Source: Pararhizobium gei (GTDB lineage Bacteria; Pseudomonadota; Alphaproteobacteria; Rhizobiales; Rhizobiaceae). Taken from it: a stretch of 64,000 nucleotides of DNA. The translations under genes and the position numbers were made by a program. The stretch's first letter is position 1. Every line of letters starts with the position of its first letter. The notes beneath the pieces were generated by a model. It ran no database searches, was not told the origin of the DNA, and saw nothing but the letters and a program-made list of their open reading frames with translations. Shown in pieces: positions 16,828 to 63,912 of the stretch. The stretch covers positions 1,080,001-1,144,000 of the forward strand of contig NZ_CP119409.1 in NCBI RefSeq assembly GCF_029223885.1, in the 5' to 3' direction.

Positions 16828-17079
16828 TCAGCCGCGGCCCTGCGTCACAATGACGGGGATCAGCAGATCGCCCCAGTTTCCCTCGCCACCATGGTGTCGT
16901 GCCGAACGCACAAGCTCGACGGAAACGCCTGCATCCACGGCCTTCATGACCGCATGATTGAGTCTGTGCAGATCATTGGCCACCATGCGGATCATCGCCT
17001 GCTGTTCCGGTGTCATGGCGGAGGACTGTTCCTCGGCGCGTTCCTTGACCTGGGTCTTGATAGGGGCCTGGACTGTCAT
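16828..17079 (-). CDS. Conserved-looking small protein downstream of aceA, unknown
   Basis: 83 residues, AGGAGAAAT-type site before the ATG at 17079. Composition is charged and helical in the N-terminal half (TPEQQAMIRMVANDLHRLNHA), then SARHHGGEGNWGDLLIPV. No signal peptide or membrane segment. It follows aceA by about 100 bp on the same strand but a GC-rich hairpin lies between them. No function can be assigned. Confidence 0.65.
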   Translation of the reverse strand: MTVQAPIKTQVKERAEEQSSAMTPEQQAMIRMVANDLHRLNHAVMKAVDAGVSVELVRSARHHGGEGNWGDLLIPVIVTQGRG

Positions 17080-17130
17080 CGTATTTCTCCTCTTGTTCTA
17101 TTCGGGGTTCTTGAATGTGTCGGTTTAAGG

Positions 17131-17174
17131 CCCCTCCCTAACACTCCCCCTTTTGGGGAGGGGTTGGGGAGGGG
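17131..17174. repeat. C-rich/G-rich imperfect hairpin repeat
   Basis: CCCCTCCC(T)AACACTCCCCC, loop TTTT, then GGGGAGGGGTTGGGGAGGGG and TTTTCTTT. The two 20-base arms are near-complementary and the right arm is internally duplicated (GGGGAGGGG twice). It sits between aceA and the small downstream gene. Such elements are dispersed intergenic repeats in rhizobia and may also act as a terminator. Confidence 0.6.
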
Positions 17175-17180
17175 TTTTCT

Positions 17181-18470
17181 TTACTCCGCCGCAGGGCGGA
17201 ACTGGTCGTGCTCGGTCGATTCGTGCATGGCTGTCGTCGAGGACTTGCCGCCGGTGATCGCCATCGAGACTGCATCGAAATAGCCGGTGCCGACTTCGCG
17301 CTGATGCTTGGTCGCCGTGTAGCCGTTGACCTCGGCGGCGAATTCCGCTTCCTGCAGCTCCGAATAGGCCGCCATTTGGCGATCCTTGTAGCCGCGCGCC
17401 AATTCGAACATGCCGAAGTTCAGCTGGTGGAAGCCGGCAAGCGTGATGAACTGGAACTTGTAGCCCATGGCGCCCAGCTCGCGCTGGAACTTGGCGATCG
17501 TCGCATCGTCGAGGTTCTTCTTCCAGTTGAACGACGGCGAGCAATTATAGGCGAGCAGCTTGCCCGGATGGACCTTATGGACGCCTTCGGCGAATTTGCG
17601 GGCCTGTTCCAGGTCGGGCTTCGAGGTTTCGCACCAGATCAGGTCGCAGTTCGGTGCATAGGCGACGGCACGGGCGATGCAGGGCTCGATGCCGTTCTTC
17701 ACCTGATAAAAGCCCTCCACCGTGCGGCCGGCATCGTAATCGACGAAAGGCTGGTCGCGCTCGTCGATGTCAGAGGTCAAAAGCTTGGCGGCTTCCGCGT
17801 CGGTGCGGGCGATGACCAATGTCGGCGTACCCATGACGTCGGCTGCCAGGCGCGCGGCGTTGAGGTTGCGGATATGCGCCGCCGTCGGGATCAGAACCTT
17901 GCCGCCGAGATGGCCGCATTTCTTCTCCGAAGCGAGCTGATCCTCGTAGTGAACGCCGGCAGCGCCCGCCTCGATGAAGGCCTTCATGATCTCGAAAGCG
18001 TTGAGCGGCCCGCCAAAGCCTGCCTCGGCATCGGCGACGATCGGCGCGAACCATGTCTCGACGGAGAGGCCCTTGCCTTCCGAAGTTTCGATCTGGTCGG
18101 CGCGCTGGAGTGTGCGGTTGATGCGCTTGGCAAGTTCCGGTGCGGCGTTCGCGGGATAAAGCGACTGGTCCGGATACATGGCGGACGCCGTATTGGCATC
18201 GGCGGCGACCTGCCAGCCGGACAAATAAATCGCCTTCAGCCCGGCGCGGACCATCTGCATCGCCTGGTTACCGGAGAGCGCGCCCAGCGCATTCACGAAA
18301 TCCTCCTCGTGAATGAGCTGCCAAAGCCGGATCGCGCCCATTTCCGCCAACGTGTGATTGATCTGGACAGAGCCGCGCAAGCGCGTGACATCGTCGGCTG
18401 TATAGGGACGATCAATGCCGTCGAAACGGCCCTGCGGTGCCTTAGGAACCAGTTTGTAAAAATCAGTCAT
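17181..18470 (-). CDS. aceA: Isocitrate lyase
   Basis: 429 residues from the ATG at 18470 (GCAGGAG eight bases upstream); the frame runs further upstream but without a comparable start. Glyoxylate-shunt enzyme splitting isocitrate into glyoxylate and succinate. The catalytic loop [14 protein letters not shown] is at about residues 185-198 and [10 protein letters not shown] is present. Divergent from an ScfR-type regulator across a 226-bp AT-rich region with repeated TTTRCAA-like words. Confidence 0.97.
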
Positions 18471-31761: not shown

Positions 31762-31838
31762 GCGGTTGTAGCTCAGTTGGTTAGAGCGCAGGTTTGTGGC
31801 ACCTGAGGTCGGAGGTTCGAGACCCCCCAACCGTACCA
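31762..31838 (+). tRNA. tRNA-His(GTG)
   Basis: 77 nt including an encoded CCA. Acceptor GCGGTTG pairs with CAACCGT, D-arm GCTC..GAGC, anticodon stem CAGGT/ACCTG with loop TTGTGGC (anticodon GTG), and T-arm GGAGG-TTCGAGA-CCCCC. The first pair is G1:U72, position 73 is A, and there is no G at -1 paired to C73. This fits the alphaproteobacterial tRNA-His class that lacks the otherwise universal G-1. Its 3' end is the integration site of the adjoining element. Confidence 0.96.
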
Positions 31839-31841
31839 TTT
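31814..31841. other. attL (tRNA-His 3' end)
   Basis: 28-bp sequence covering the T-loop half of tRNA-His, CCA and three T residues, identical to 55766-55793. The integrase gene starts 160 bp to the right, the usual place for a tRNA-targeting tyrosine integrase. Confidence 0.88.
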
Positions 31842-32000
31842 GTTTTCTGCCTAAGTGTTTGATTTCATTGTTGAATTTAGCGTTGTCCACCGGCGCTGGT
31901 TGACTTTTCCCCTAAATTTGCACTACTTATTGCACAACTGAGCCCTTCGGATGTGCATTTGGCCCGTAAACTCATTGATTTGAAATTCGCTCTTGATCCT

Positions 32001-32443
32001 ATGCGCTATCTTAAGCGTCGGGGTGATAAATGGCATTATGTCCGGCGTGTGCCAAAGCATCTTTCAGTGCTCGATTCTCGCGGGCTGATTCAAACATCTC
32101 TGAAAACACGGTCACTCGACGTGGCACAGTTGCGCCGGGATGCGGCTGAACGGGCCGACGATCTTTACTGGCAGGGAATAGCCACAGAAGACGACGCCGA
32201 TGCCACCATGACCATCTACAAAGCTGCTCGTGCCCGTGCTGTGGCGATGGGGTTTGAATACAAAGCTATGTCCGACTTGACCGCGTCGGCACCATTTGAG
32301 GAAATTCTACGGCGTCTTGAGGCCCTACCAGCTCGGCCGCCGCTTCGCGACGTGATGGCATTGACCGGGAATTCCGATGAACCGGCGTTGACGGTCCGTA
32401 AGGCGATGGCGCTCTATCTGAGTGATATCGCGATCGGCGACAC
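32001..32443 (+). pseudogene. Tyrosine integrase, N-terminal fragment
   Basis: About 148 residues of a phage/ICE-type integrase, from ATG at 32001 (MRYLKRRGDKWHYVRRVP, the beta-stranded N-terminal domain of rhizobial tRNA integrases) to about YLSDIAIGD in the SAM-like core-binding domain. The catalytic domain (R...HxxR...Y) is missing. The frame continues to 33035, but from about 32443 the encoded protein is only the antisense of the convergent tape-measure gene. The break is thus a deletion junction. Confidence 0.85.
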
Positions 32444-35400
32444 CAAGGGTACCCTCGTCGAAATCCTCCTGCTTGGTCTTGCCGCCCGCCATGATCTGCG
32501 AGCCACCGCCCATCTTCTGGTTGGCCCAATTGATCAGATCCTGGACAGAGGTATTGTCCTTGATGACGGTCGGGTTCGCGGCTGTAGACGCCGGCTGAAT
32601 GATGTTCTTCGCCAGTTCTTCAGGGTTGGCGAGCAGCACCTTGATCGCATCGTTCGAACCGAGGAAATGAGCGAGATACGTGTTGCCGGGATCAGGAGCC
32701 ACGCCTGCGGCAGCAAGCCTGCTCTGGTTCTGCTTGGTCAGTTCCTCCAGGACCGGGCGTGCATAGTCCTCGTTGTAACGGTAGGCCAGTTTCTGTGCGT
32801 CGGTCAGTTGCGTGAGCGCCGGGAACAGACGGTTGAAGATCGGCAACCAGGTGCTGCCAATAAACTGGCCGATACCTTGCGCGCTCGAACCCGGCTTGTT
32901 GGTGTCGGTTTCAGGTGTCCGGCCGCCTTCGATACGAATGATGCGATCAACCACGGTCTTGCTGCTGTCCGGCAACGAGTCGAAACGCTGGCGATCAAAG
33001 GCGGTCTGCGCTGCGTTGCCAGCCGTCGCCCATAGACCGACGATCTTGGCGATCGCCTGGATATCCCCGCTGTTGAATGCAGCAACGAGACCTTCCCAGG
33101 CCGTCTTGTTGATCTCTGTGATCTCCTTAAGCTTCTTCAACTCTTCGGCGAGACCCGGGATTTTCGATTTCAGATCGTCGATCGCGTCCGTATAGGTCTT
33201 GACCGCGGCATTCTTGTCGAAGGTGCCGGTCACTTCTTCCACGGACTTCTGTAGTCCAAGCAGCACCTTGTCCGCATCGGTCGCAGTACCGGAATAAAGG
33301 CGCAGTTTGGCTTCGGAAACGGTAACGGCCTGCCCCAACTCCTCAAAACTCGGACTACCATCCTTGGCGGTGTTGATCATCCCGAGCAGTTCGAGCGCAA
33401 TACTCTTGAACTGCTCGTCTGTCGGGTTGAGCGCGATCTCGTTCAACGTCTTAGCAAGATCCTTGATCGCAGGCGCACCACGCTTCTCGACATCGTCGAG
33501 TGCAGCCGTCAACTGGTTGAGTTGTTTAATCTCAGCGGTATCGGGACCAAAATCCGAAAAGGCATATTTGAGAACGCGGCTGACGCCCTGCATGTCACCA
33601 AGCATGGCCTTGAACTGCGTGCGCAGATCCTCGGTGCTTTGGATGGCTTGAGCCAGGGTGACACTGTTGACAGCTTTCGCCCAATCGCCGGCCTTGTCCT
33701 TGGCGTTCTGATAGCCGGTTACCGTCGCCTGCAGCTGGCGCTCATGCTCGGTCAGCGCCTTCGTGGCCTGATCGACGCTCAGGAGCCAACTGCCAACGGC
33801 GAACGTGATGCCCGTGGCGATGATGCCTGGGATACCACCGAACACTGCCAGGAAGCCACGGGCGAGCGTGCCGACGCTCAGGAGCACCGTGCGCAGCAAA
33901 CCTATGCTGTTCGCCAGGCCCACGACGCCGACATGAGCAAGAGCCGTCTGACTGGTGGATGCAAGCAGACCTTGGCGATAGGTGCCGAGAGCCCCAGATA
34001 CCTGACCAAGGCCACGGGCAAGAACCGTTTGTGACTGCGCGGCTGCCTGCGTCATTGGCCCGATGAGCGTGACCTGACGATTGAAAGCGCCCATCTGCCG
34101 ACTGGTGGCTACGACGCGCACCGATACCGACGAAGATTTCCCCGAGTTTGATCGCAGCGAACAGCTTGGCCGCAAACGTCATCTCGTCGAAATACTCAGG
34201 CACCTCCGCCAGGATCTGCAGGAACTTGCCGATCAGCACCCCGAGATTGGTAAAAGTCTCCTGACCCTCAATGCTCTTCGAGAACTCGTCGAAGGATTGC
34301 AGCGCGAGACGCAGACCGGGCACCAAGCCGTTGGCAATCGTAAGATTGGCGCTGAAGATATTGTTCTCGAAACGACCAAGGTCTGTTGTGGCAGTATCGA
34401 GCGCGGCCGGCAACTGCGAGCCGTAGATCGACGTCATCTGCCGCGCAACTTTTAGGAAATTGTCACGGGTGGAGAAAACTTCACCCGCTTCCATCAACTT
34501 CAGAAACTCAGATGTACTTTTGCCAAGTGCGTCGGAGAACAGTTTCAAAGCACCTGGGAACGCCTCACCAAGCTGTTGAACAACCTCCTGACTCTGGATC
34601 TTCCCCTTATTCAACATTTGCGTGAATGCGAGGAAGACGCGCGATGTCTGTTCAGTCGAAAGCTTGTTAACGCGCGCCGCCTCGGCGATGGACAGGAACA
34701 CTTCCCGCGTTTCACCCGTCGCGAAATCGCTGGCCTTGGCGGCCACAGCAAACTTACCGTATTCCTCACCAAGCGTTGCGAAGCTCACACCGAGGCGGTC
34801 AGCCTGTTCGCGCAGGAATCCAATCTCGATCGCAACCTTGGCAGTGTCTTGCTGGAAGACGGAACCGAGTCGGCTCTGCACGGCTTCCAGGGTCTTGTAA
34901 GCATCGATTGCGCCACCGACCTGACCAATCACAGCCTGAAAGCCGATATAACTGGCCGTCAGCGACAGCACCTCGCCGCGCAGGCGCTGGATCAGCGACA
35001 ACGACTGCCGCGAGTTCGATGCCATGGTGAGCAGCGAGGTGTTGAAAGCATTCGTCTGTCCGGCAGCCGATCCCGCGGCCTGACCTGTGCCGCGGACGGC
35101 CGGCGCCAGTTGCCGTTGTGCGTTCGAGGCGTTGGCGGCCGAGGAAGCGATCTGGCTGTTGGCTGCTGCCATTGACGACGCGCCGGCACGCATGGCCGTT
35201 GCACCCTGACTGAATGCAAGGAAGGTGGACTTCGAAGATCCCTGCAGCTTCTGCAGCGCCGCGCGCTGAGCCTCGTAGGCATCAGACGCCTGTCGAGCGC
35301 GTGCCTGAGCACGACCGAACTCGGCACCCAGTTCCTCGGTCGGCGCGTCAGCCGCCTTGATCTCTTGCGCGAGCGTCTTGACGGCAGCCTGAGACGTCAC

Positions 35401-36426
35401 CCATTCCTTACGCGCTTCAAGCATCGCACGGCGCTGACCCTCGATCGTTTTCGTGTCGATCGGCAAGCCTGCAGAAGTGGTGCGTGGTCCGGCCGTTGCT
35501 GTATTGCTGGACGCAAGCGCGTCGATACGGGCCTTTGCAGCCGCCAGGTTCGCAGCCATGCGGATCGCCGTGGCACTGACCTGTTCCTGCGTCAGACCAA
35601 CAGTGCCAAGGGCCTTCGAGGCGTTGTCCGCGCCGACCTTCATATCTGTCAAGGCGGCTGAAGCGCGTGCAGTCGTTTCGCGTTCTTCGGCAAGAGCGGC
35701 TGTCGCGCGCTCAGTCTCGTGGGCAAGAGAACGCTGAAGGGATCCGGCTTCCGAGACTTGGGGTTTCAATTCCTTGACTGCTGCGGTCGATTCCTTGACG
35801 ACAGTCTCGTATTTCGCAACCTCGGCATTCACCTGAGCCTGAATGGTTTTCGCTGAAACCAATGCGGAAGCAATACCCGCGCCTTCTGTCGCTTGCTCGG
35901 CAGTCGGCACGGTGTGAATCGAAACACGATTTTTACCACGTCCCTGAGTGAAGAGAGCTTTGTTGTACCGTTCTTGCGCAACTTCTGCGTCACGAACCAG
36001 TTTATTCGCGATCTGCTGCTGAGCGTTGTTGTCTTTCAGCGATGCCTTGTTTGCAGCCAGGGCGGCTTCTTCGGCAGCCAGGGCAGCTTTGAGCCGGTTG
36101 GCGGCTGCAGCAGCCTCGTCGCTGCGTTTCGTCAGTTTCTGGACTTCATCCGTGCTGTCGGCAACGGACTTCTCCATGCGCGTGACAGCGGCTGACGCCT
36201 TGTCGAGTTCTGCGGCGATCTTGCCAACAGACTTGAGGCGATCAACCTCGCGCTGGAATTTCGTGACATCATCGGTCAGACCACCAAGGGCAGCCGAGGT
36301 TTTTCCGGCACCCTTGGCGAGTTCATCCTGTTCGACCTTGTATTTGCGAATCGCCTTGGCGACGTCGTCGATCTGCTTCGACGCCTTGTCTCTGGCCTTA
36401 ATGACGACGTCGATATCTTTACCCAT
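32443..36426 (-). pseudogene. Phage tail tape-measure protein (frameshifted, 3' end lost)
   Basis: Originally about 1330 codons. The first frame (36426 to about 34115) starts MGKDIDVVIKARDKASKQID, has long coiled coil rich in Ala, Glu and Lys, then the tape-measure N-terminal domain about residues 520-720 (LREQADRLGVSFATLGEEYG, TREVFLSIAEAARV, LGEAFPGALKLFSDALG). After IFVGIGAR the sense shifts by one base into the frame running 34130 to 32443, with a hydrophobic helix segment and a lytic-transglycosylase-like domain (IIRIEGG, AQGIGQFIGSTWLPIF). The C-terminus stops at the junction with the integrase fragment. At least two lesions, so not functional as one protein. Confidence 0.85.
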
Positions 36427-36957: not shown

Positions 36958-39432
36958 TCATATTTCCAGGTCGCTGTGCTGTGCGACTGGAGCGGCAACC
37001 ATGGCGAAATCTCGTGAGTCGTCTGGCCAGATGAGCTGCGATCCAAGCATCTGTTCGAACTCAGCGCGGGCCGTGCCGAGGGATGGGATGACAAATGTGT
37101 TGCTGCGCCTGATACCGTCCCGAGGACGGCTTACCGCCAAGCTGGAGAGCATCAATCTGAGGCGCCTACTGAACTCGATCGAATTCAGCTCTTGCCCGTC
37201 GAACCGACGGGAGTGCAACCAACGGCTATAGCCATCGCGGAATTCGATTTTGTCGACATTTACGGAGCTGAATGCCCACTGCTCTTCGGTGACGCCAGCA
37301 AATTTCATCGAACCATGCTGCAGCACCCCATGCCACCAGCGCTCTACATTCTTCAGTCCCTCGATCTTCTGCTCGGCCAGGGCGTCGGTGTTCGGCACGT
37401 CGCGCACCTGGAAACCGGTAAGGTCGTAGTTCATCAGGAAGTCGAGCAGGGCCTCACGGCCGCCGTGGGTCATCTCGTGTCGCAGGGCGGCGAAATACTT
37501 GTGGTCGTTACGGCGTCTGTCGGAGACATTGACGACGAAAAACCGCCCTTCGTCCTCGGTCGCTGGAATCACCCAACGCTCGTTCGATGACATGAATAGG
37601 CGCAGGACGGACTTGATTGGGAAGGCGTTCATGCCCTTGGGCTCGATCATCACGTCGTTCGAGGTAATGAGGTACTTGAGCGCGCCTTCCTGGCGCTTGT
37701 CGCCGGCCCAAAAACCTTCCTGCATGTGGACCAGTAGGCATCGCTCCTGGTGGCCGTTGAACTTGCCCGTAAGCTGCTCCTGGTTGCCCACGGTTATGTA
37801 GTGATTGAAGAAAAGGCCACCGACGTATTCGAAAACGGTGTCCTTGCCGATTCGCTTCTTGCCCTTGGCGATTATCGCCACACCCGGCTTTTCCTCCGGT
37901 TTCTGGATCATGTGCGCGAGCCATCCGAGGATATAGAGGTAGTGCTCTTCGTTCCCGGCACAGAAAATCTCGAACAGGTGCTTCAGGAACAGCCTGCACG
38001 ACTTGGTTCCGTCCGGTTGGACCGAGAACCCTTGCCAGTGGTTATAGGCGCCCTCGACAACCTTGTTCGGTGCGAAAACGATGCCGTTAGGGTACTGGCG
38101 TCGTGCTTTATGCTGCATCCACAACTTAGTGATTGGGACAGTCGTATCGTCTTTCGGCCGACGATCGTTCTCATAGTAATTGTGGAGATCGTTGACCGAA
38201 CCGTATGTCACGCTGCCGTTGGGATGGATGTCGATCACCACGGTCTTGCTGCTCACGCGCGCCACAGCATGCAGCTTGTTCAAGCGCACGACCCATTTTG
38301 GCGCATCGACCCCGAGCTCGAACTCGATCTCCGCTTGTTTCAATCGAATCTGTGATTTTGACGGTTTGCGAAGGACAACTGGCCCACCGAAAATGTCATC
38401 AAACATTCCAGTGGAGTAGGAACCGTCTCCGAGTTCAAGATCGTCTACCTCGGGCATTTCTTCGAAGTCGGACAGGATGCGTTCATCCCGCACTACCGCA
38501 ACGAGAGACGCAAATCTAAACGGCTTTTTGTTTTGCTTATCCTTGAAAGATTTCCACGTGCGTTCCTGGTCTTGAAAATCAAATTTTTCGCTCGTGCGTG
38601 AGTAGTAATTCCACGTTTCCAGACCCCAGATAGACCCACCAGTCTCATGGTGGATGGCCATACCTACGAGCAGCCATTGATTTCGATCTTCAAACCATTC
38701 CGCAGGGTCAAGTTGATCAAGAATCGCAATGATTTGCTCAGGGGTGTACCCTAATGGTTGAGTACGATTGGGATCAATCTCACCTTCTTCGTCAGCGTGA
38801 CCGACGACACGCTCGACGGCTTCCGAGGAAACGATTGGGCCGAAACCCAACTCCAGCATGTCGAAATCGAATTGGCGCTGCCAGGTGTAGGGAAGACTTG
38901 TGTCGGGGTGAATCGACGGTGGAATTGCGGCCTGCGAGCCGGTTCCGAGCAGGTGAAGTTCCCAATCCCACTTCTTAACTTCCCGATCCTTGACCTCGTC
39001 ATGGACCATCTGAAAGCCCGTGCTGTGGGCGAACTTGCGCGGGGAAAAATGTTTGTCGGTGAGGAAATAGAAATGCCGGCTGGCGCCACCTGAGCCTGAT
39101 ATAACGGTGGGGAATGTATTGACGTCGATCTCGGGGAAGATCTCCTTCAACCTGGCGAGCGCTTCGTCTCGGGTCGCCGGATTGCGCACGTCGAAATCTA
39201 TGATGTGGAGGAATAGATCAGCGACAACTGACCACTTACCCAAGCGGACGCCAATGTTATTGCCATCGCGGTAGTCGCGCTTCAATTGTTCAAGTGTCGA
39301 TACAGGTTTTGCGGCCCAATCGTTTCCGATCGGCCTCTTGGATTTCGGGTGCAACCAATGGAGAGCGAACCCGGCCGTGACCAGACGCTCGATTTGGCTG
39401 GAAATGTCTTTTGGCATCAACATCGGCTTCAT
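36958..39432 (-). CDS. Primase-polymerase / D5-like helicase (DUF5906-type)
   Basis: 824 residues. The N-terminal Prim-Pol domain (about 15-200) shows LHIIDFDVRN near residue 76 (acidic DxD pair) and SGSGGASRHFYF near 115. The C-terminal half carries a superfamily-3/D5-like ATPase with Walker-A-like GKKRIGKDT near residue 524, RCLLVHMQEGFWAGDKRQ and VLRLFMSSNERWVIPA. This fusion is found in phages, satellites and plasmids as the replication initiator-primase-helicase. It is intact, in contrast to the neighbouring tail gene. An iteron-like array lies 4.6 kb upstream. Confidence 0.85.
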   Translation of the reverse strand: MKPMLMPKDISSQIERLVTAGFALHWLHPKSKRPIGNDWAAKPVSTLEQLKRDYRDGNNIGVRLGKWSVVADLFLHIIDFDVRNPATRDEALARLKEIFPEIDVNTFPTVISGSGGASRHFYFLTDKHFSPRKFAHSTGFQMVHDEVKDREVKKWDWELHLLGTGSQAAIPPSIHPDTSLPYTWQRQFDFDMLELGFGPIVSSEAVERVVGHADEEGEIDPNRTQPLGYTPEQIIAILDQLDPAEWFEDRNQWLLVGMAIHHETGGSIWGLETWNYYSRTSEKFDFQDQERTWKSFKDKQNKKPFRFASLVAVVRDERILSDFEEMPEVDDLELGDGSYSTGMFDDIFGGPVVLRKPSKSQIRLKQAEIEFELGVDAPKWVVRLNKLHAVARVSSKTVVIDIHPNGSVTYGSVNDLHNYYENDRRPKDDTTVPITKLWMQHKARRQYPNGIVFAPNKVVEGAYNHWQGFSVQPDGTKSCRLFLKHLFEIFCAGNEEHYLYILGWLAHMIQKPEEKPGVAIIAKGKKRIGKDTVFEYVGGLFFNHYITVGNQEQLTGKFNGHQERCLLVHMQEGFWAGDKRQEGALKYLITSNDVMIEPKGMNAFPIKSVLRLFMSSNERWVIPATEDEGRFFVVNVSDRRRNDHKYFAALRHEMTHGGREALLDFLMNYDLTGFQVRDVPNTDALAEQKIEGLKNVERWWHGVLQHGSMKFAGVTEEQWAFSSVNVDKIEFRDGYSRWLHSRRFDGQELNSIEFSRRLRLMLSSLAVSRPRDGIRRSNTFVIPSLGTARAEFEQMLGSQLIWPDDSRDFAMVAAPVAQHSDLEI

Positions 39433-43958: not shown

Positions 43959-44044
43959 TTCCATTCTCCTTCGCCGACACAGCGCTGTCGCGAATTCCGT
44001 TCAGCTCAGGCCAGCATTATGTTGACCTTGGTAGAACGGGTCGT

Positions 44045-44332
44045 GGTCAGGATGGTCGTTGCCTTGGTCAGGATGCCTAAGTTGAAAAAAAGATAACGAA
44101 ATCAATACCTGGTCGGTATGGTCGGTATGGTCGGGATGAGTTGGCATTACTCTTTATATACGGGATGAAAAAACGTACTGCACAACAAGACAAACGAGAC
44201 TGCCAGGTAAAATGGGTTGCGCATACACGGTGAATTCATACCGACCATACCGACCACTACTATTTATCTTATTGATTCTATTATAAAAAATATGGTCAGG
44301 ATGGAGTGGTTTTTGGTCGGTATGGTCAGGAT
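44045..44332. repeat. Iteron-like array: ten copies of GGTCRGKAT
   Basis: Plus-strand copies begin at 44045, 44066, 44111, 44120, 44129, 44294, 44315 and 44324; two inverted copies at 44238 and 44247. Several are exactly abutting (44111-44137, 44238-44255, 44315-44332). It lies in a 714-bp gene-free, AT-rich stretch (43965-44678) together with a 16-bp direct repeat. Candidate replication origin or control region bound by the element's primase-helicase or a small regulator. Confidence 0.8.
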
Positions 44333-44516
44333 AAATCGGCAAAAGTTGACTCAGCCAGAATGATCTTAGCGAAAATAAAGCAAAAAATTTCCGCTTACCG
44401 GGGCTCAGCGCCCCTCCCGAATGGTGCAGTGACGCAGGGAGGACCCATAGCCAGTGCACACTTAGACATTCGGGCTGATCGCACACGCAGACGCTGCATG
44501 ACTGCACAACAAGACA
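44177..44516. repeat. 16-bp direct repeat flanking the right half of the array
   Basis: ACTGCACAACAAGACA occurs exactly at 44177-44192 and 44501-44516, 324 bp apart. The inverted iterons and the last three direct iterons lie between the two copies. Confidence 0.8.
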
Positions 44517-44678
44517 TCAACTAGCGCACAACGGACAATGAAGGCCGAACTTGAAAGCAGGGCAAATCATCGGGATTCCCCTTCGCTGCATACGGTTTAC
44601 GAGCGGACAATGCACGTTAGCCGAACCGGTCCTGAGAGCTAGTCCTTTGGATGCCTGGAGCTTGTCCGCTGTCGAGGT

Positions 44679-45626
44679 TCACGCCGCCTGTCGGTACAGC
44701 ATGAACCTAAGTTCGCCTGAGAGAGCTGCGTCAACACTCAAGTCCTGACGGATCAGTCCATGGCTCCACCGGCGCCGCGACCTTGGAGCATGCCACGGCG
44801 GGCAATCGACCATCGGATACCAGCATACCCCGACGATATCAGCGCCCCGTTCGCCCGCTGTGTTCACTTCATCAAGCACATGCCGCATCCACATACCCTT
44901 ATGAAAACCAGGATGCCGGCGGTGATGCACAGGGTGCCCGTCGTGCCAGCTCGTTTCAGAGACCATGATGGGCTTGCAGTACCGCCGCCAGGTTTTCAGC
45001 AATACCTTCGACAAGGCTGTACGAGCGGTATGCGGATAGTAATTCACTCCGATGACATCGACGGGCACTGCCGAAACGATCGCGTCCGTTGCCTCATATT
45101 GTCGATCGCCAACGCCCGTGATTGGATCATTGACGAGGATCCCGACATTTGGGTGAGCGTCCAGAGCCGCACGGGTCATCTGGACCGCCATAGCCACTGC
45201 ATGTTCACGGGATAAGCCCGCAAGCATCGGATAAAGAGATGGTTCGTTCACGGGACAGAGCCACAGCTTTTCAGATCCATCGACGGCCAAAGCTTGCAAG
45301 GCGATCGACCGGGAATAGGCCGCGGCATCTTCCACATGGTGGTAGTGCGACAAATCCCAGATCACCTGCATTCCGGTTTCACGCGCCGCCCGCAGCCGCT
45401 CTACCGTGTCGTGGCCGGGTACCAGCCCGTCGCGGGCAACGAGGATGCCGTGATCGATCGCAATTCGGAAATGTTCTCGCATCCGATCGCCGGCAAGATG
45501 CCGTGTCGTTCTCAGCAGGTCGTGTTTGCCACGGTGCACGATCCCGCACTCGAACCCAGCAACAATCTTGCTTTTGAACAGGGAGCGCTCCGGCGAAAAC
45601 AGATTGTATTGGTCGAGCCTGAACAC
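44679..45626 (-). CDS. GH-A clan glycoside hydrolase (family 1/5-like)
   Basis: 315 residues from a GTG at 45626; upstream in-frame codons run to a TGA without another start. TIM-barrel features: KIVAGFECG at the N-terminus, MQVIWDLSHYHH, LCPVNEPSLYP (acid/base Glu in NEP), VDVIGVNYYPHT and PIMVSETSWHDG (nucleophile Glu). No signal peptide. Base composition is richer in GC than the neighbouring genes, so it may be a cargo gene of separate origin. Substrate unknown. Confidence 0.75.
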   Translation of the reverse strand: MFRLDQYNLFSPERSLFKSKIVAGFECGIVHRGKHDLLRTTRHLAGDRMREHFRIAIDHGILVARDGLVPGHDTVERLRAARETGMQVIWDLSHYHHVEDAAAYSRSIALQALAVDGSEKLWLCPVNEPSLYPMLAGLSREHAVAMAVQMTRAALDAHPNVGILVNDPITGVGDRQYEATDAIVSAVPVDVIGVNYYPHTARTALSKVLLKTWRRYCKPIMVSETSWHDGHPVHHRRHPGFHKGMWMRHVLDEVNTAGERGADIVGVCWYPMVDCPPWHAPRSRRRWSHGLIRQDLSVDAALSGELRFMLYRQAA

Positions 45627-45984: not shown

Positions 45985-46178
45985 CCGCTGAATCCTTCAT
46001 CCAATGGCTCGCGGAGATGAGATCAAATGGCCTGGCCCGTTCCGATGCCGAGTGCGGTCGTCTGCTCGGTATTTCCGCTAACTCAGTCGTTGCCATAAAG
46101 AAGCAGGGCGCCGACGTCAGGACTGCGCTTGCGTGTCGGGCACTGCTTCATCGACTCGATCCTTGGGGGAAGCTTTAA
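45981..46178 (+). CDS. Small HTH (Cro/XRE-like) regulator
   Basis: 65 residues from ATG at 45981, translationally coupled to the gene before. The segment RSDAECGRLLGISANSVVAI reads as a helix-turn-helix. A good candidate for the repressor acting at the ATACAA/TTGTAT operator in front of its own operon. Confidence 0.65.
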   Translation: MTAESFIQWLAEMRSNGLARSDAECGRLLGISANSVVAIKKQGADVRTALACRALLHRLDPWGKL

Positions 46179-46367
46179 TCGGCGGCCTTGACGGAGTTGA
46201 CTAAAAGGGCCTCGAAAGACCCTTAAATTACCCAGCCGTGGGCGGGGGAAGGTGCCTGCTTTCATACGACCATAAGTCGACGTCGTGCCGAGCTTGGTCA
46301 TCTGCCGCACTTCAGCGAGCTTCATTAGTGTTTCGATAGGGCTGATATGGGTAACTTCGTCAATCAT
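46083..46367 (-). CDS. AlpA-like DNA-binding domain, damaged C-terminus
   Basis: 94-residue frame. Residues about 14-45 (LMKLAEVRQMTKLGTTSTYGRMKAGTFPRP) match an AlpA/excisionase HTH and closely resemble the second domain of the upstream gene. After that the sequence stops resembling the family and runs antisense to the small HTH gene, so the end is probably lost by deletion. It overlaps the upstream gene by 8 bp. Confidence 0.5.
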   Translation of the reverse strand: MIDEVTHISPIETLMKLAEVRQMTKLGTTSTYGRMKAGTFPRPRLGNLRVFRGPFSQLRQGRRLKLPPRIESMKQCPTRKRSPDVGALLLYGND

Positions 46368-46914
46368 CCTTGTGCTCCGGCGCGTTCAAGGCGTGCGTTT
46401 TAGTCTCTCTCTCAGACAAAAGATCGGCTATCCATTTTTGCACCTCGGACATTCGCCACCTGACGGTGTTGCCTCCCAGATTCCGAGGTAGGGGAAACGT
46501 GCCGTCTTTCATCTTGCGATAGATGGTCGCCGTAGCGAGCTTGGTCATTTCTCTGACTTCTTTGATTCGAAGGAGCGTTTCAATGTCCTTATCAAAGACG
46601 ATCTTTCCCTCACCCTTGCTTTCGACCGACGATGAGGCATGTTCGGGAAACGGCGCTTCCATCCCCCGTGAGGTTCGGTCTATAGGCATGCGTCGTGCCA
46701 CTGGCGGATTAGAATCTGATACTAACGCGGTAAAAGCGGCGTCGAGGGCATCTCGGTCCCAAATCAGGCGGTCGTCAATCTTCTTTGGCCGCGGCATGCG
46801 GCCGTCGTTGACCATAGAGTCGAACGTTGCAGCGCCGAGGCCAATATACCGAACTGCGTCGTCGCGGTTGAGCCCGCGGGGAGGGTAGGCGATATGGTCG
46901 CGCTTCTTGTACAT
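46360..46914 (-). CDS. Double-HTH protein (excisionase-like plus AlpA domain)
   Basis: 184 residues. The first domain about 15-65 (NRDDAVRYIGLGAATFDSMV, KKIDDRLIWDRDALDAAF) is a MerR/excisionase-like helix-turn-helix, followed by a linker and a second AlpA domain about 125-175 (LLRIKEVREMTKLATATIYR, LGGNTVRWRMSEVQKWI). AlpA proteins act as transcription regulators or recombination directionality factors in phages and integrative elements. Two such domains in one chain is uncommon. Confidence 0.75.
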   Translation of the reverse strand: MYKKRDHIAYPPRGLNRDDAVRYIGLGAATFDSMVNDGRMPRPKKIDDRLIWDRDALDAAFTALVSDSNPPVARRMPIDRTSRGMEAPFPEHASSSVESKGEGKIVFDKDIETLLRIKEVREMTKLATATIYRKMKDGTFPLPRNLGGNTVRWRMSEVQKWIADLLSERETKTHALNAPEHKDD

Positions 46915-48292: not shown

Positions 48293-51200
48293 ATGAAGTT
48301 GCGCGGCATTGGTTTCGGACTTGTTGCAGGTCTTTTGGTGTCGGTTGCGACCGGTGCCTCTGCGGACGATCCTCAACTGGACGAAACAGTTCCCGCGATA
48401 GAAAGCCCGTTAGAGGTCCCGGCAGAGGTCGGGGAGCCTGTGCCGACGCAGCCGGAGTTGGAGCCGGCACAGCCTGAAAAGACTGAACTGAAGCGGGCAC
48501 AACCCGTCGAGGAGCCGACGGCGGTCACCGATGCCGCAGGCGGCGTGGTTGTCGAAAACAGCTCCGTCGAGGAGCAACATGGCGGAGCCTGGGGAGCACA
48601 TCCGACGCTCGGCGACGTCACGAACAACGGCGCCTTTTCCTACACCTATCCTATCGACGTTCCCGCATTCCGCGGTCTCGAACCCAAGCTTGAACTTACC
48701 TATAATTCGAGCCGGAAGACCAAAACGGGTGGAAGCTACCAGGGCTGGCTCGGCTTTGGCTGGGGCCTTTCCGGCATTCCCGTCATCGAACGTGTCGGGG
48801 CCGACCTTGGCATCCCGCAATATCCGGTTCTCCCGGCGCCGGATACAGATGTTTACACGCTGAACGGTGAGCCGCTGGCTCGCTGCAAGGGCTACGGAGC
48901 CTCATGCGTCGCTCAGGATACCGGCGGTGGAACCAACAACACGCCGAACACGTGGGTGTCCGAAGTCGAGAATTATCTGAAAATCAAATATATTCCTGCC
49001 AGCAATCTTTGGGAAGTGACCGCCCGCGACGGAACCAAAACCACGTTCACGTCGGTTGGCACAATCGCGAGTGCGGCTGCCAACGACGATACGAGCGAGC
49101 ATGAAACCCGCTTCGAGTATCGATGGCTGGCTACGGAAACGGCCGACACATACGGCAACAAGATCAAATATTTTTACAGCTGCCCCGAATTACCGGTCTG
49201 CTATCCCACCGCCATTGATTATCACAATCGAGCAATCGGGACGCCCGTCAGGACGATCCGGTTCCATTACGACGCCCGGCCGGACTATATCGTGGCAGCC
49301 AACGGACACTCGCTGTCCTACACGAAAATGCGCATAAAGGCGGTTGTGGTTCAGACATCAGGCACAAACACGTCGGGTTACAAGCTGTCCTATGATCAGG
49401 CGCCTTTCAGCAATGCGTCGCGCCTGACATCGATCCAGCAGTTTGGAAGCGACCTTGTCCTGGATGCTAATTATGCCATCGCCTCCGGCAGTGCGCTGCC
49501 GCCGACGACGTTCGCCTATAATGACCCGACCTCAAGCGGTTTTGCGCCAAGCCAGGAAATTGTTGGACTCAACGGCATTCCGATTCAAAAAGTGACAAAG
49601 ACATATGAAAAAGATGATCCCTACGAGAGCAACACGACGTTAGTCAAAAAGAATTACTTGAGAAGTTCCTACGCCGCCGTAGATGTCGATTCAAATGGTG
49701 TCACGGAAATTCTGAAGGCGGAATGGGATGACTACGGAAGTACAACATGCGATTATTTCCTTTACTATAGCCGGCAACGGACAACGGATTATACTGCACT
49801 GGATATACACTTTCCGTGCCCTTCTTTTATGTATAGCAGCACCAATTCGGAATCTGCCAAGGTTATTCAGGGGTTATCGGTAGGACGGTTTGGCACCGAC
49901 AAAACGAAGCCCTATCTGATGACGCTGGTCCCGTCGAGCAATGACAACCCCTTTGACATAGACAAACCACATGTGCGCTGGCAGGCCTCGTTTTCCAAAA
50001 GCGGCGAAGATCTCGTTGAAAATCTGAAGGATTGCTATGCGCTTGAAGGCGCAACACGCTTTGTTGCAGATCCGCCGATGAAAGCCCTGTGCAAAAAAGA
50101 GCATCCGAACGTCTATGCAGTCGATTGGGATGGTGACGGCCGTGATGCCGTCACCATCGGTGGCAACATCGCAAATTTGTTTGGAGACGGGCGTCAGCAA
50201 AGAATCACCGTTAAAGACGATGACACCTACCGTGTCCATCTCGTTGATGGCGCTTTCAAAACCGACAAGCTTGGAAGTTTCCTTTGCAAGGAGGAAAATT
50301 GTGCGATTGCGGACGTGAACGGCGACGGGCTGAGTGACGTTGTCAGCATGAAACACAATAACTACGTCGGTATTGGTGTTTCTGAGCTGACGTTTTATTT
50401 GTTCACTGGCGACAAGCTGGTCGAGTGGTCATCTCAGGCCGACGACAGTGGCGTATCGCCAGTGGTCACCGATGTCGATGGCGATGGAAAAGCCGAGGTT
50501 TTGTTCGGTACACCCGCTGGCGACAGTCCCTTCGCCAGCTTGAGTTGGCGAATCTACAAGGCGATATCCAGTCCGCAGGAGGGAACGGGCATCGATGGGG
50601 CCAATCTCGGGATCACGAGCAGCTTCGTCACTTCCGGTGACTTCAACGGCGACGGCCAATCCGACCTGCTCATCGCGCCGCCCACTCCAAGCACTTCTTA
50701 TAATCCTCAAAAAACCGATTATGAGAACGCTGCCGCTCTCAATCAGATGTTCGACAACTTTGAGGCCAATAAATACCGCATCCGATACGGGTCTGCGACC
50801 GGCGGCATCGCCCACCTCATCAACACGGTAACGACGCCGCAGGGCGGGCAGGTCAAGGCGGCCTATGCGCCGTCGACGGCCTACAAGAACACCTATCTGC
50901 CCTATAGCATTGCGACCGTCAGCTCCCTGTCGGTGCTGGACGGCCGGGGCCAGACGGCAACGACGCGCTATGATTACGCCAACGGCAAGTATGATATCGA
51001 AAAGCGCCGCTTCCTGGGCTTCGGCAATGTTGCGAAAACCCTGCCGAAGATCACCGGCGAGGCCGATGCGCCGATCGTCAAGACAGCCTATGTCCAGAAC
51101 ATCGCGGCCATCGGCCTGCCATCGACAAAAATATTCCTCGACCCGGACGGCGAGGTCCAGCGGGTGGTTGCGGAAACCTATGAGATCGACGACACGCATA

Positions 51201-54200
51201 TCCCCTATAAGGCTCAAAACACCGTCACGACAACGGAACTGCGGGTTGGCACGGTAGAGCGCTCGACGCGCCAAACCCGGATCTTCGACGATTTCGGCAA
51301 TATTACCCAGGAAACGGACGAAGGCCGCCGCGACGTGTCCGGCGACGAGACCATTACCAAACGGGCTTTCTACTACAACAAGGGCGCCTATATTGTCTCG
51401 CTGCCGGCCTGGCTCAGGCTGTCGGAACCCGGCAGCACCCAGAATCTGAGAGCCCAGAACTTTCTCTACGACGACCAGCAGGGGGAAGTCGCACCCATCA
51501 AAGGCGAGTTGACCGGCAGGCGCGATTATACCAGCTCCGGCGTGTATCAGGAATCCACATTCCACTATGACGACTACGGCAACCTGGACTGGTCGTCCAA
51601 TGGCGTGGGAAACAAGACGTCCTATGTCTATGACGGGACGCAGCGTCTGTTCGTCACGAAAACGACTTTTCCCAATGGACTGGTGGAAACTGGTACCCCG
51701 AACGCGGCCTGCAGCGCGCCGGCGACGAAGACGGATGTCAACGGCGTCGTCACCAGCTACAGCTACGATGTCTTCTGCCGGCCGACCGAGGTTTTGAACG
51801 GCATATCGGGCGCCTATACGAAAACCGCCTATGAACAGTTCGGCAATCCCGCGTCGCAGTTCATCAAGACCTCGACAAGCCGGCAGAGTTCCACCGCCGA
51901 TGCCGAGCAGTATCAGTCTTTCGACGGCCTGGGACGGGTCTGGCGCGTTATCGATGCGGCCCAGCCGAATTCGATTGTCGAAACCCGGTACGATCTCCGC
52001 GGAAATGTGGAAAAGGTCACCCATCCCTATTTCGCAGGCGAACCGCAATACTGGACGGTGACCAGTTTCGACTGGGCCAACCGTCCGATTGCCATCACCA
52101 ATCCGGATGGCAGCAGCAAATTCCTGCATTACGGCCTGCAGGATACCCTGTCCATAACCGATAGTGTCCCGTTCCAATATACCCGCGTCGGCGATGAGGA
52201 AGGCGGGGCGATCTATACCTATACCTCCGCTGCCGGCGACGTGATCGCCAAGGCGCAGAGAAGCAGGCCCGCCGCAGACGGGAGCACGACCTCCCGCTGG
52301 CTCTTTGGCGCGACCTTCGATGGCGCGCACCGCATGCTTGGCGTCAAGGATGCGGCCGGTTCCGTCTGGACCTACACCTATGACTTGATGGGCAACCGCA
52401 CATCGGCCAAAGATCCCGATCTGGGCCAGTGGTCCTACAGCTACGACAAGGCCAACCGCCTGGTCCGGCAGACGGACGCGCGCGACAAGGTGACGACCAT
52501 CACCTATGACAGCAACGGCCGGCCCCTGACCACCATGGTCTATAACAGCGTTGCGGATGCCAATGCGAACAGCGGCGGCGGTCTGCTGTCGCAGAATGTC
52601 TATGACGAGGACGTCAGCGGCTATTACAACAAGGGTCAGCTGACGAAATCGTCCAATTCCATGCAGAAGCAGGAATTCCGCTACAATGCCGACGGCCTGC
52701 AGCAGATGAAGCGGGTGACGATCAACGACAGCGTCCTGGACGCCCCCCTGGTTCACACCGAGACGACCGGTCTCGACAAGGGCGGCCTGCCCCTGTGGAA
52801 GGAATACGGGCCGGATCCCTTGGGGCTCGATGTCGGTTCCTCGTCCAGCCGCTGGGCGTACGACCGCAAGAACCAGCTGATCTCGATCCCCGGCTACATC
52901 AATTCCGTGACCTACGAGGCCGATGGGCAGACCGCGTCGATCGCCTATAGCAATGGTTTCGAGACGTTCTTCACCTATGATCCGCAGCGCCGCTGGCTGA
53001 CCAAGATCGCCACGCAGAAGGATCCCGGAAACGGCGATCCGATATCGGTGCTGCTGCGCTCGGCCTATGTCCGCGACCAGACCGGCCGCATCCTGTCGAT
53101 CAACGGCCTTGGGACGCTGAACGACTGGGTCTATACCTATGACGGCTTCGGCCGGATCGCCGGCGCGGTGAATGCCGGCGATCCCGCCTATTCCGAAACC
53201 TTCACCTATGCCGCCAATGACAATCTCCTGTCACGCTCGCGGCTGACGGGGAGTTTCGTCTATCCCGCGGCCAGTGCCGCCCACCCGCATGCGCCCGTCT
53301 CGCTCGGCACCACCGCCTTTACCTATGACGACAACGGCAACCTGCTGACTGACGGGACGCGAACCTTCACCTACGATCTCGCCAACCGCGTCGCCTCCGT
53401 GGCGGCCGTCGGCAGCAACACGGTGACGCTGCGCTACGGTCCTGATGGTGCAAGGGTCAAGCGGGGATCGGCGGGCGGCAGCACCTATTATATCGACGCC
53501 AATGTCGAATATGACGGCACCCGCTTCACGCGCTATCCGCATATGGACATCAAGGTCACCGGCACGTCGCGCACTTTCCTCCACCGCGACCACCTCTCCT
53601 CCATCAGCGCCGTCACCAGCATGACCAGCGGCCTCGGCGCCACCGAGACCAACCGCTACGCCACCTTTGGCGAGCCCCACAACAAGGATATGGATACCCA
53701 GAAGGGCTATATCGGCGAACGCTACGACGCCGAAACCGGCCTGTCCTATCTCAACGCCCGCTACATGGACCCGAGGTTCGGACGGTTCATCTCGCCGGAC
53801 ACATGGGACCCGACGATGGAGGGTGTCGGCACCAACCGTTATGCCTATGCCGGCAATGATCCGGTGAACAGGAGCGATCCGAATGGGCATGTATCGGGTG
53901 CAACCGGACAACCGGAAGCGACAAAAGCCTACGAAAGTCAACAAGCAGCAGACCGGCAAGATCACGAGGCGTCAACTCTAGCCGACAAAATGCAAAGTCT
54001 TGGAAATGGAAATGAGGGGGGACTATTTGATGGCGTCGATCCAGAGGTCGAGGCCCTTGCACGTGAAAAACGTAAATTTGCAGTGTCAGGTGTAGCTGTG
54101 CCGGATGACACAATTTTCGCATTGATTCCGGGCGGCGCAATTGTTCGAGGATTGTCAGTTGCCAAAGGTGTGATTTCAGGCGGGGTGCCTCGCGCGGTAA

Positions 54201-54580
54201 CGGGAACTGTTTGGGATTCTATCAAGGCAACCCAGTCTCTTATCGAAGGCACGTCGATACCTCGCTCATTTGAGATGGCAACGGGAAAAGGTAGCGTTTG
54301 GGTTTCCGGAAACGGAACAAAGCATCTTGGCGAACAGGCAACGTCAATCTTTAACAGGGCCTTGAAAGCACCGGGTGGGAACGCCGCCTCGGCTCGGGAA
54401 ATTGCTGATATAGGGTCCCAGACACAACTTCGCAGTTTGAATGCCGCTGTGAGTGATGCATTCGCGGCAGGGATCAAGTATGACAGGCTTGTGCGAACTG
54501 GGGGTTGGGAATTAAAGTTCGGTGCACCACGTCAGCCAGGGCAACTGCCCGCTCTCTATCACGCTTTGGAGCGTCCATAA
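48293..54580 (+). CDS. SpvB/RHS-repeat polymorphic toxin
   Basis: 2095 residues. Sec signal peptide 1-24, Pro/Glu-rich linker to about 85, SpvB/TcdB-like segment from about 105, FG-GAP/VCBS calcium-binding repeats (VDWDGDGRD near 608, [10 protein letters not shown] near 672, [10 protein letters not shown] near 725, [10 protein letters not shown] near 782), many YD repeats about 1070-1760, and the RHS core [20 protein letters not shown] / [15 protein letters not shown] ending near 1866. The variable tip (about 230 residues) has a hydrophobic pre-toxin segment [17 protein letters not shown] and an unrecognised C-terminal domain. ATG at 48293 follows GAGG. No VgrG, PAAR or T6SS genes nearby. Confidence 0.92.
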
Positions 54581-55765: not shown

Positions 55766-55793
55766 GGTTCGAGACCCCCCAACCGTACCATTT
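55766..55793. other. attR (copy of tRNA-His 3' end)
   Basis: 28 bp identical to 31814-31841. The preceding sequence does not match the rest of the tRNA, so this is the displaced right-hand attachment site and not a second tRNA gene. Confidence 0.88.
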
Positions 55794-62907: not shown

Positions 62908-63912
62908 ATGTTGCGCTTCTTTTTCGGACGTCTGGCCGTCCTCATCCCGACCTTTATCGGGGTTTCCATCATTGCTTTCTCATTCATCCGTCTGCTGCCG
63001 GGCGATCCGGTTATGCTGATGTCGGGAGAACGGGTTATGTCTCCTGAGCGCCATGCCCTGTTGATGACCGAACTCGGTCTCGACCGGCCGGTCTATGCGC
63101 AGTATTTTGATTATCTCGTCAATCTGCTGCAGGGCGATTTTGGTAGCTCGATCGTTACCAAGCGGGCCGTGCTTGACGATTTCCTGCAGTTGTTTCCGGC
63201 AACGCTCGAATTGTCCATCTGCGCCATTCTTCTCGCCGTATTTCTCGGCGTTCCTGCCGGCGTTCTCGCAGCGGTCAAGCGCGGAACCTGGCTCGACCAG
63301 ACACTGATGGGAACCGCGCTGATCGGCTATTCCATGCCGATTTTCTGGTGGGGCCTGCTGCTCGTGATCTTCTTTTCGGGCTATCTCGGCTGGACACCCG
63401 TCTCCGGCCGTATCTCGCTGATGTATTTCTTCCCGCAGGTGAGCGGTTTCATGCTGATCGACAGTCTGATTTCAGGGCAGGCGGGCGCCTTCAAGTCCGC
63501 CGTCACCTATCTGATCCTGCCGACCATCGTGCTGGCGACGATCCCGCTGGCGGTCATCGCCCGCCAGACCCGGTCTGCCATGCTGGAGGTGTTGGGCGAG
63601 GACTATGTTCGCACCGCCCGGTCCAAGGGTCTGTCTCCCTTCCGGGTCATCGGCGTGCATGCCCTGCGCAATGCGCTGATCCCTGTCGTCACCACCATCG
63701 GTCTCCAGGTCGGCGTACTCCTGGCAGGCGCGATCCTGACGGAAACCATTTTCTCATGGCCGGGTATCGGCAAGTGGATGGTCGATTCCGTGTTCAAACG
63801 CGATTATCAGGTCGTGCAAGGCGGACTGATGCTGATCGCCGCCGTCATCATGATCGTCAATCTCATCGTCGATGTGCTTTACGGGCTCATCAACCCCCGC
63901 ATCCGGCACTAG
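62908..63912 (+). CDS. dppB: Dipeptide ABC transporter permease 1
   Basis: 334 residues, about six membrane spans; the N-terminal LIPTFIGVSIIAFSFIRLLP and the GDPV motif are typical of DppB/OppB. EAA loop VLGEDYVRTARSKGLSPFRV present. Confidence 0.93.
   Translation: MLRFFFGRLAVLIPTFIGVSIIAFSFIRLLPGDPVMLMSGERVMSPERHALLMTELGLDRPVYAQYFDYLVNLLQGDFGSSIVTKRAVLDDFLQLFPATLELSICAILLAVFLGVPAGVLAAVKRGTWLDQTLMGTALIGYSMPIFWWGLLLVIFFSGYLGWTPVSGRISLMYFFPQVSGFMLIDSLISGQAGAFKSAVTYLILPTIVLATIPLAVIARQTRSAMLEVLGEDYVRTARSKGLSPFRVIGVHALRNALIPVVTTIGLQVGVLLAGAILTETIFSWPGIGKWMVDSVFKRDYQVVQGGLMLIAAVIMIVNLIVDVLYGLINPRIRH

Follow-up and report, generated by a model that had tools for sequence, protein, structure and literature searches.

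The 64,000-nucleotide stretch of Pararhizobium gei DNA analyzed here (contig NZ_CP119409.1 of assembly GCF_029223885.1, positions 1,080,001 to 1,144,000 of the forward strand; below, the window, with positions counted from its first letter) holds an integrated element of about 24 kb that carries an array of short repeats, or iterons, at 44045-44332 and a gene for an 824-aa primase-helicase. We consider it very probable that this array serves, or served for as long as the element could move, as a replication origin to which the self-loading primase-helicase of the element itself binds. By analogy, it would work like the origins of the satellite P4, of the Staphylococcus aureus pathogenicity islands (SaPIs), and of the phage-inducible chromosomal islands (PICIs) of Gram-negative bacteria. 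Beyond what a first-pass annotation of this DNA had proposed, we observed that the repeated word changes among relatives under a kept geometry, that isolated phages have such arrays, and that the element itself is broken.

The array (288 bp) contains ten exact copies of the 9-mer GGTCRGKAT, eight on the forward strand (44045, 44066, 44111, 44120, 44129, 44294, 44315, and 44324) and two on the reverse strand (44238 and 44247). The first-pass annotation had described ten near-identical 9-mers in both orientations, many of them exactly abutting, and both points hold: seven of the ten sites lie exactly 9 bp from a neighbor. Just one further exact copy occurs in the window, at 62944, and in 200 shuffles of the window (first-order Markov resampling, as in the shuffle control of the array detector below) there were on average 1.4 words in total and at most two per 288 bp. 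The doubled word, with up to one mismatch, is confined to this array in the host genome, and a similarity search of plasmid and phage DNA with the array gave no match.

The steps from site to site are 21/45/9/9/109/9/47/21/9, which divides the array into cluster 1 (44045-44074, forward, with sites 44045 and 44066 and a degenerate eleventh site at 44054), an AT-rich spacer (44075-44110, GC 0.31), cluster 2 (44111-44137, forward, three abutting sites), a center (44138-44237, GC 0.43), the inverted cluster 3 (44238-44255, reverse, two abutting sites), a second AT-rich spacer (44256-44293, GC 0.13), and cluster 4 (44294-44332, forward, with sites 44294, 44315, and 44324). Each AT-rich spacer thus has sites on both flanks, and the two are presumed to be the melting regions. 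The stretch between the flanking open reading frames (ORFs), 43965-44678, does have the 714 bp given in the first-pass annotation, but with a GC of 0.493 versus 0.576 for the window it is only mildly AT-rich, so that the label suits the two spacers better than the whole stretch; the array itself has a GC of 0.424. Nor is the stretch strictly gene-free in the program's list, as a 117-codon ORF (44154-44507), which we take to be spurious, overlaps the array. Chance or simple slippage could produce a functionless repeat of this kind, and the exactly abutting units are what slippage would yield, in an array whose GGTCRGKAT word is unique to this element. However, slippage would not yield the inverted copies at a distance of 109 bp or the spacing given above, and relatives show a similar layout built from other words, a comparative result that largely contradicts this explanation; we consider it very unlikely.

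The comparative result comes from loci encoding relatives of the Prim-Pol/DUF5906 helicase. Searching near homologues for the array, as the first-pass annotation had advised, failed for the same word and succeeded for equivalent arrays with other words: in 49 relative loci (L005-L053), GGTCRGKAT never occurs in more than one exact copy per 400 bp, while a word-independent count found in most relatives a dense 9-mer array of their own near the helicase, typically with 7-13 copies per 600 bp. In the control for this count, the best arrays in twenty 20-kb stretches of host chromosome had 6 copies in the median case and never more than 10. Because the count-only detector was misled by coding repeats (L008, L011), we used an architecture-aware detector with a cut-off score of 10. 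At this score, 57 of the 70 loci have a 9-mer array, with other words, within about 7 kb, or 52 of 64 after removal of six duplicate rows (L015, L016, L021, L023, L117, and L118). The threshold was reached by 2 of 210 shuffles and by none of the 20 host-chromosome stretches (maximum 9.5). Second-best places reached it in 5 of the 70 loci, the highest (16.0) being a coding-type repeat in L011.

Among the matches behind the survey were 42 listed rows: 26 places were extended into the surrounding DNA, as was a second place in the same P. gei genome, 12 rows were left unwidened, and the remainder were the window and repeats. Of the 48 loci L005-L052, seven duplicates (L026, L027, L029, L033, L040, L047, and L050) were dropped before counting, and L099 was dropped too. 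Duplicates left in the count of 57 out of 70 are L117, which equals L038, and L118, which equals L016; L015, L016, L019, and L021 have a common Bradyrhizobium word, which is also found in L023 (score 8.5).

Motif refinement in 44 loci showed a recurrent spacing among unrelated words: groups of two or three sites at step 9, outer clusters with a step of about 21, a gap of about 45 bp (34-50) from outer to inner cluster across an AT-rich spacer, and mutually inverted inner clusters roughly 60-136 bp apart. What is conserved is the geometry, and what changes is the word. Mean GC is 0.40 in the spacers (n=87), 0.52 in the centers (n=50), and 0.60 in the loci, with eight rows excluded from the spacer statistics. 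Most of the arrays (51/57) are located 3' of the helicase match; 37 of them are no more than 700 bp from its end, and 26 no more than 100 bp. The other six, 5' of the match, belong to L010, the window, and the four rhizobial relatives of the window. Across 52 arrays there are 6-13 copies, with 12 copies in eight, and twelve-site arrays (e.g., L030, L097, L124, and L136) hint at two hexamers with one site for each subunit.

The presumed initiator is encoded at 36958-39432 on the reverse strand. As the first-pass annotation had read it, this gene is an intact Prim-Pol with a D5-like helicase: Prim-Pol, PriCT_2, and DUF5906 each score above the Pfam cut-off in one 824-aa frame. A fold model gives the protein a C-terminal winged helix (residues 724-800; 37033-37263, reverse strand), the wing being about residues 764-782 (37087-37143, reverse strand). 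By sequence, its sole PDB relatives are the NrS-1 primase-polymerase-helicase, and its best fold match is the NrS-1 C-terminal region; the SaPI5 protein and PriRep1-dsDNA are also among its structural matches. With three domains in one chain and this fold, the protein is an NrS-1-type Prim-Pol/helicase.

The word of the array covaries with the C-terminal winged helix of the helicase, above all with its wing, and in a Mantel test the covariation with the wing goes beyond that of the helicase core. Oriented by geometry alone, with the inner clusters pointing toward the center, the words mostly start with T-G-[GTC]-[TC]-C and have a variable second half (TGGTCAGGG, TGTCCCTAG, TGGTCTAGG, TGCCCCATC, TGTCCAACC), although some depart from this start (TGAGATAAG, TGCTGCACG, TTTCCCTAG, GGTACAGGA). 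The covariation set comprises 49 of the 70 loci, mostly one row per near-identical group with the word register set by eye; it includes L037 and L137, which score below 10, and excludes L048, L134, and L140, and the Mantel test used 47 of the 49 loci (without L016 and L045). One of the words, TGCCCCATC, belongs to a second DUF5906 helicase gene of the P. gei genome itself, which has a 12-copy array 6-8 bp past the helicase match (L097:9853-10114; contig C1, about 1201852-1202113).

Based on these observations, the C-terminal winged helix of the 824-aa protein would read the 9-bp words as double-stranded DNA, and the sites flanking each AT-rich spacer would gather helicase rings, which may then melt the spacer and load themselves, after which the N-terminal Prim-Pol domain could make primers. 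The two half-origins face each other over a center of about 110 bp, so loading in both directions is expected. The decayed element may still be able to use this origin.

Known phages and P4 provided controls for the detector, which recovers the annotated P4 crr (13.5) and ori (10.0). In the P4 record, crr has 8-mers at step 9, a 43-bp gap, and inverted copies, and the alpha gene has its 3' end 46 bp away. Three of six annotated phages have strong arrays, namely RDJL Phi 1 (18.5), NrS-1 (18.0), and RcDora (17.0). The NrS-1 array (17063-17368) begins 12 bp after the polymerase gene and has twelve copies of TTACACTTT with at most one mismatch, at steps of 9, 13, 17, 9, 58, 11, 12, 12, 50, 9, and 105. 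The annotated hypothetical protein NRS1_29 (L148, AB746912:17055-17456) covers most of this array and resembles a translation of the iterons themselves.

According to the available excerpts of PMC8718748, the NrS-1 polymerase initiates at TTTGGTTA, and this published priming site lies within the NrS-1 array, on the minus strand at 17198. The Prim-Pol/helix-bundle part of the protein could then read the words in single-stranded DNA, as priming sites, an explanation that we consider improbable. The 8-mer TTTGGTTA occurs only once in the NrS-1 record (versus two copies in the genome center in the excerpts of PMC7102993), and the word that is repeated there is TTACACTTT. Arrays also adjoin genes for helicases of about 450-510 aa that match in the helicase and C-terminal part only (e.g., L042, L020, and L097), and the wing covaries with the words over and above the core of the helicase, in a comparison made without the Prim-Pol domain. 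A conserved priming box sought in the center gave a weak signal, ATACACG being present in 7 of 19 centers versus a maximum of 5 in shuffles.

The array lies directly 5' of a 204-aa ORF, and regulators and partition proteins also use repeated sites, so an operator or a partition/incompatibility site of another element protein, such as that of this ORF or AlpA, has to be considered. We find this hard to credit, given that the array-bearing relatives gave no match to the 204-aa ORF, that AlpA was matched in few of them, and that the arrays adjoin the 3' end of the helicase gene in varied contexts with words that covary with its wing. The helicase served as the query, so its presence at every locus is a given.

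Several points weigh against the array being an origin bound by the primase-helicase. Binding and replication, and with them the origin role, are predicted from sequence and models. Thirteen of the 70 loci stay below the score of 10 (L008, L022, L023, L024, L025, L037, L046, L049, L051, L052, L137, L139, and L141), among them the close relative L008 (58% identity), and whole-locus scans of L008, L022, L025, L139, and L141 found nothing reaching 10. Two loci counted among the 57, L133 and L140, are doubtful. Three annotated phages fall below 10: PaMx28 (8.5, in a partial record that stops 400 bp beyond its gene), YuA (7.0), and J2 (5.0). The detector rewards steps of 9-10 bp, and the first arrays had already been seen when it was designed, so its gap statistics are partly built in; the motif refinement in 44 loci is more independent. 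The word-wing tests were post hoc, with the register set by eye. The window array is 4.6 kb 5' of the helicase gene, unlike those of most relatives, which are just 3', and its cluster 1 has an orientation opposite to that in many relatives. Finally, the integrase and tape-measure genes of the element are broken.

Tentatively, and as slightly less than an even bet, we propose a wider generalization: self-loading DUF5906/D5-type helicases would have one origin architecture in common, whether they belong to satellites, to prophages, or to isolated phages, over a range that extends from alphaproteobacteria as far as P4 and NrS-1. In its ideal form it would have 12 sites, three per flank of two AT-rich spacers and thus one per subunit of two hexamers. 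If this is true, the word drifts with the wing, so that co-resident elements, such as the second P. gei element with the word TGCCCCATC, would keep separate replication compatibility groups. How NrS-1-type enzymes find and open their start site is left open in the available part of the NrS-1 structural paper (PMC7102993). The arrays are named, testable sites for a large family, covering 57 loci, three isolated phages (RDJL Phi 1, RcDora, and NrS-1), and a rhizobial element. Homologues number several hundred, with 661 proteins at E <= 1e-20. Kept geometry, drifting words, and a covarying wing form a natural series for the joint change of initiator and origin, and the same series bears on which combinations of phages and satellites can replicate together.

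The first-pass annotation had likened the array to P4-type origins, and the geometry agrees: P4 ori and crr also have short repeats in both orientations, with step 9 and a 43-bp gap in crr. Membership in P4 does not follow. The P4 word differs from GGTCRGKAT, as the annotation had said; P4 has a separate ori and crr, the latter of two direct 120-bp repeats, whereas the 64-kb window has only one array with GGTCRGKAT, made of two inverted halves; and the P4 alpha protein matches PF03288, whereas the 824-aa protein matches only Prim-Pol, PriCT_2, and DUF5906. No Pfam match to Psu, delta, or epsilon was found in 17 ORFs of the element (family numbers from the accessible text of PMC8628076), and AlpA is the only P4-type gene found. 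The element is not a P4 satellite. The candidate role of the array as the origin of a satellite or phage replicon, also suggested in that annotation, is supported at the sequence level by the equivalent arrays with other words near most relatives.

SaPI Rep/PriRep and the Cch2 protein of the staphylococcal cassette chromosome mec are self-loading helicases whose C-terminal domain binds iterons, with the origin directly downstream of the gene (excerpts of PMC7581432); their origins have other words and belong to another host phylum. NrS-1 shares with the window protein Prim-Pol and helicase in one chain and has an array close downstream of the gene, though with less regular spacing, and iterons go unmentioned in the excerpts of PMC8718748 and PMC7102993. 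Gram-negative PICIs and the related PICMIs (phage-inducible chromosomal minimalist islands) have integrase, AlpA, and primase, DUF5906 being one PICMI primase marker, and the PICI origin is downstream of the primase gene (PMC10111431, PMC10803314); the word iteron does not occur in the available text of either paper. Of this gene set, AlpA and the primase are present in the element and the integrase is truncated, while L006, L007, L009, and L013 have recombinase genes. In contrast to PICIs and PICMIs, the element is 24 kb long, has a tape-measure gene and cargo, and is alphaproteobacterial. Among the titles and abstract openings searched, no such arrays were described for DUF5906 Prim-Pol phages, and an earlier description may exist.

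The element is enclosed by a 28-bp repeat of the 3' end of tRNA-His (31762-31838, forward strand), with the left copy at 31814-31841 and an exact right copy at 55766-55793, both on the forward strand and about 24 kb apart. An ORF of 360 aa (31953-33035, forward strand) has the integrase-type N-terminal domain DUF6538, but the second part of the ORF lies opposite the tape-measure gene, in antisense, which makes this a truncated integrase; "integrase" matches of this ORF in relatives were discarded, as they are antisense overlaps with the tape-measure genes there. The tape-measure gene (32325-36426, reverse strand) is split over two frames (33742-36426 and 32325-34175), and with both genes damaged, the element is decayed. 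It also contains the Prim-Pol/DUF5906 gene, the array, two AlpA-type frames (46083-46914, reverse strand; 46360-46914, 184 aa, above the Pfam cut-off and 46083-46367, 94 aa, just below), an RHS-type ORF, and several ORFs without a family. The RHS-type ORF (48293-54580, 2095 aa), near the right end, has RHS repeats and matches to TcdB_toxin_midN, SpvB, and FG-GAP, and is presumably cargo. Adjoining the array is a 315-aa ORF (44679-45626) with a partial match to glycosyl hydrolase family 53 (27.9 bits, cut-off 24).

Four rhizobial relatives (L006, L007, L009, and L013) have the order array, small genes, Prim-Pol/helicase, a 138-147-aa ORF, and tape measure, with a recombinase gene next. Their tape-measure genes are full-length (L006:12884-17839, L007:12938-18001, L009:12890-17869, and L013:12928-18027; 1651-1699 aa), about the size of the 1694-aa tape measure of Rhizobium phage RHph_X2_30. 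No capsid or terminase gene was found among 18 scanned ORFs of these four loci, a subset of the ORFs in elements with undefined ends; if the rhizobial elements are truly satellites, a lone tape-measure gene is unusual. Attachment repeats of at least 14 bp were absent beside L006, L007, and L013, and L009 has one of 14 bp.

Beyond the array, at 44397-44446 on the forward strand, is a G+C-rich inverted-repeat block followed by GGACCC, whose core keeps a distance of 65-69 bp to the array in the window and five other rhizobial loci: L005 (16030), L006 (6982), L007 (6557), L009 (6867), and L013 (6032). The block also adjoins the arrays of two phage-like loci (L028:14900 and L038:15738). Candidate roles are a packaging site, part of the origin, or a terminator. 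The record of RHph_X2_30 starts within the block, a hint towards a cos site; weighed against this are the RcD-cluster phages, whose genome ends have 12-base 5' overhangs according to the available part of PMC8601537. RcDora, which we take from the match list to group with these phages, has a block-like stretch recognized by eye only, internal to the record, and the block pattern with three substitutions allowed has no match there. Repeats of a ATCACAGCGTTACGC-type word are found at the left end of RHph_X2_30 (L098:60-300, the start of MW980061), and ACTGTGATT-type repeats lie close to the array in L028 (14989-15453), so that in phage-like loci a second repeat family adjoins the origin region.
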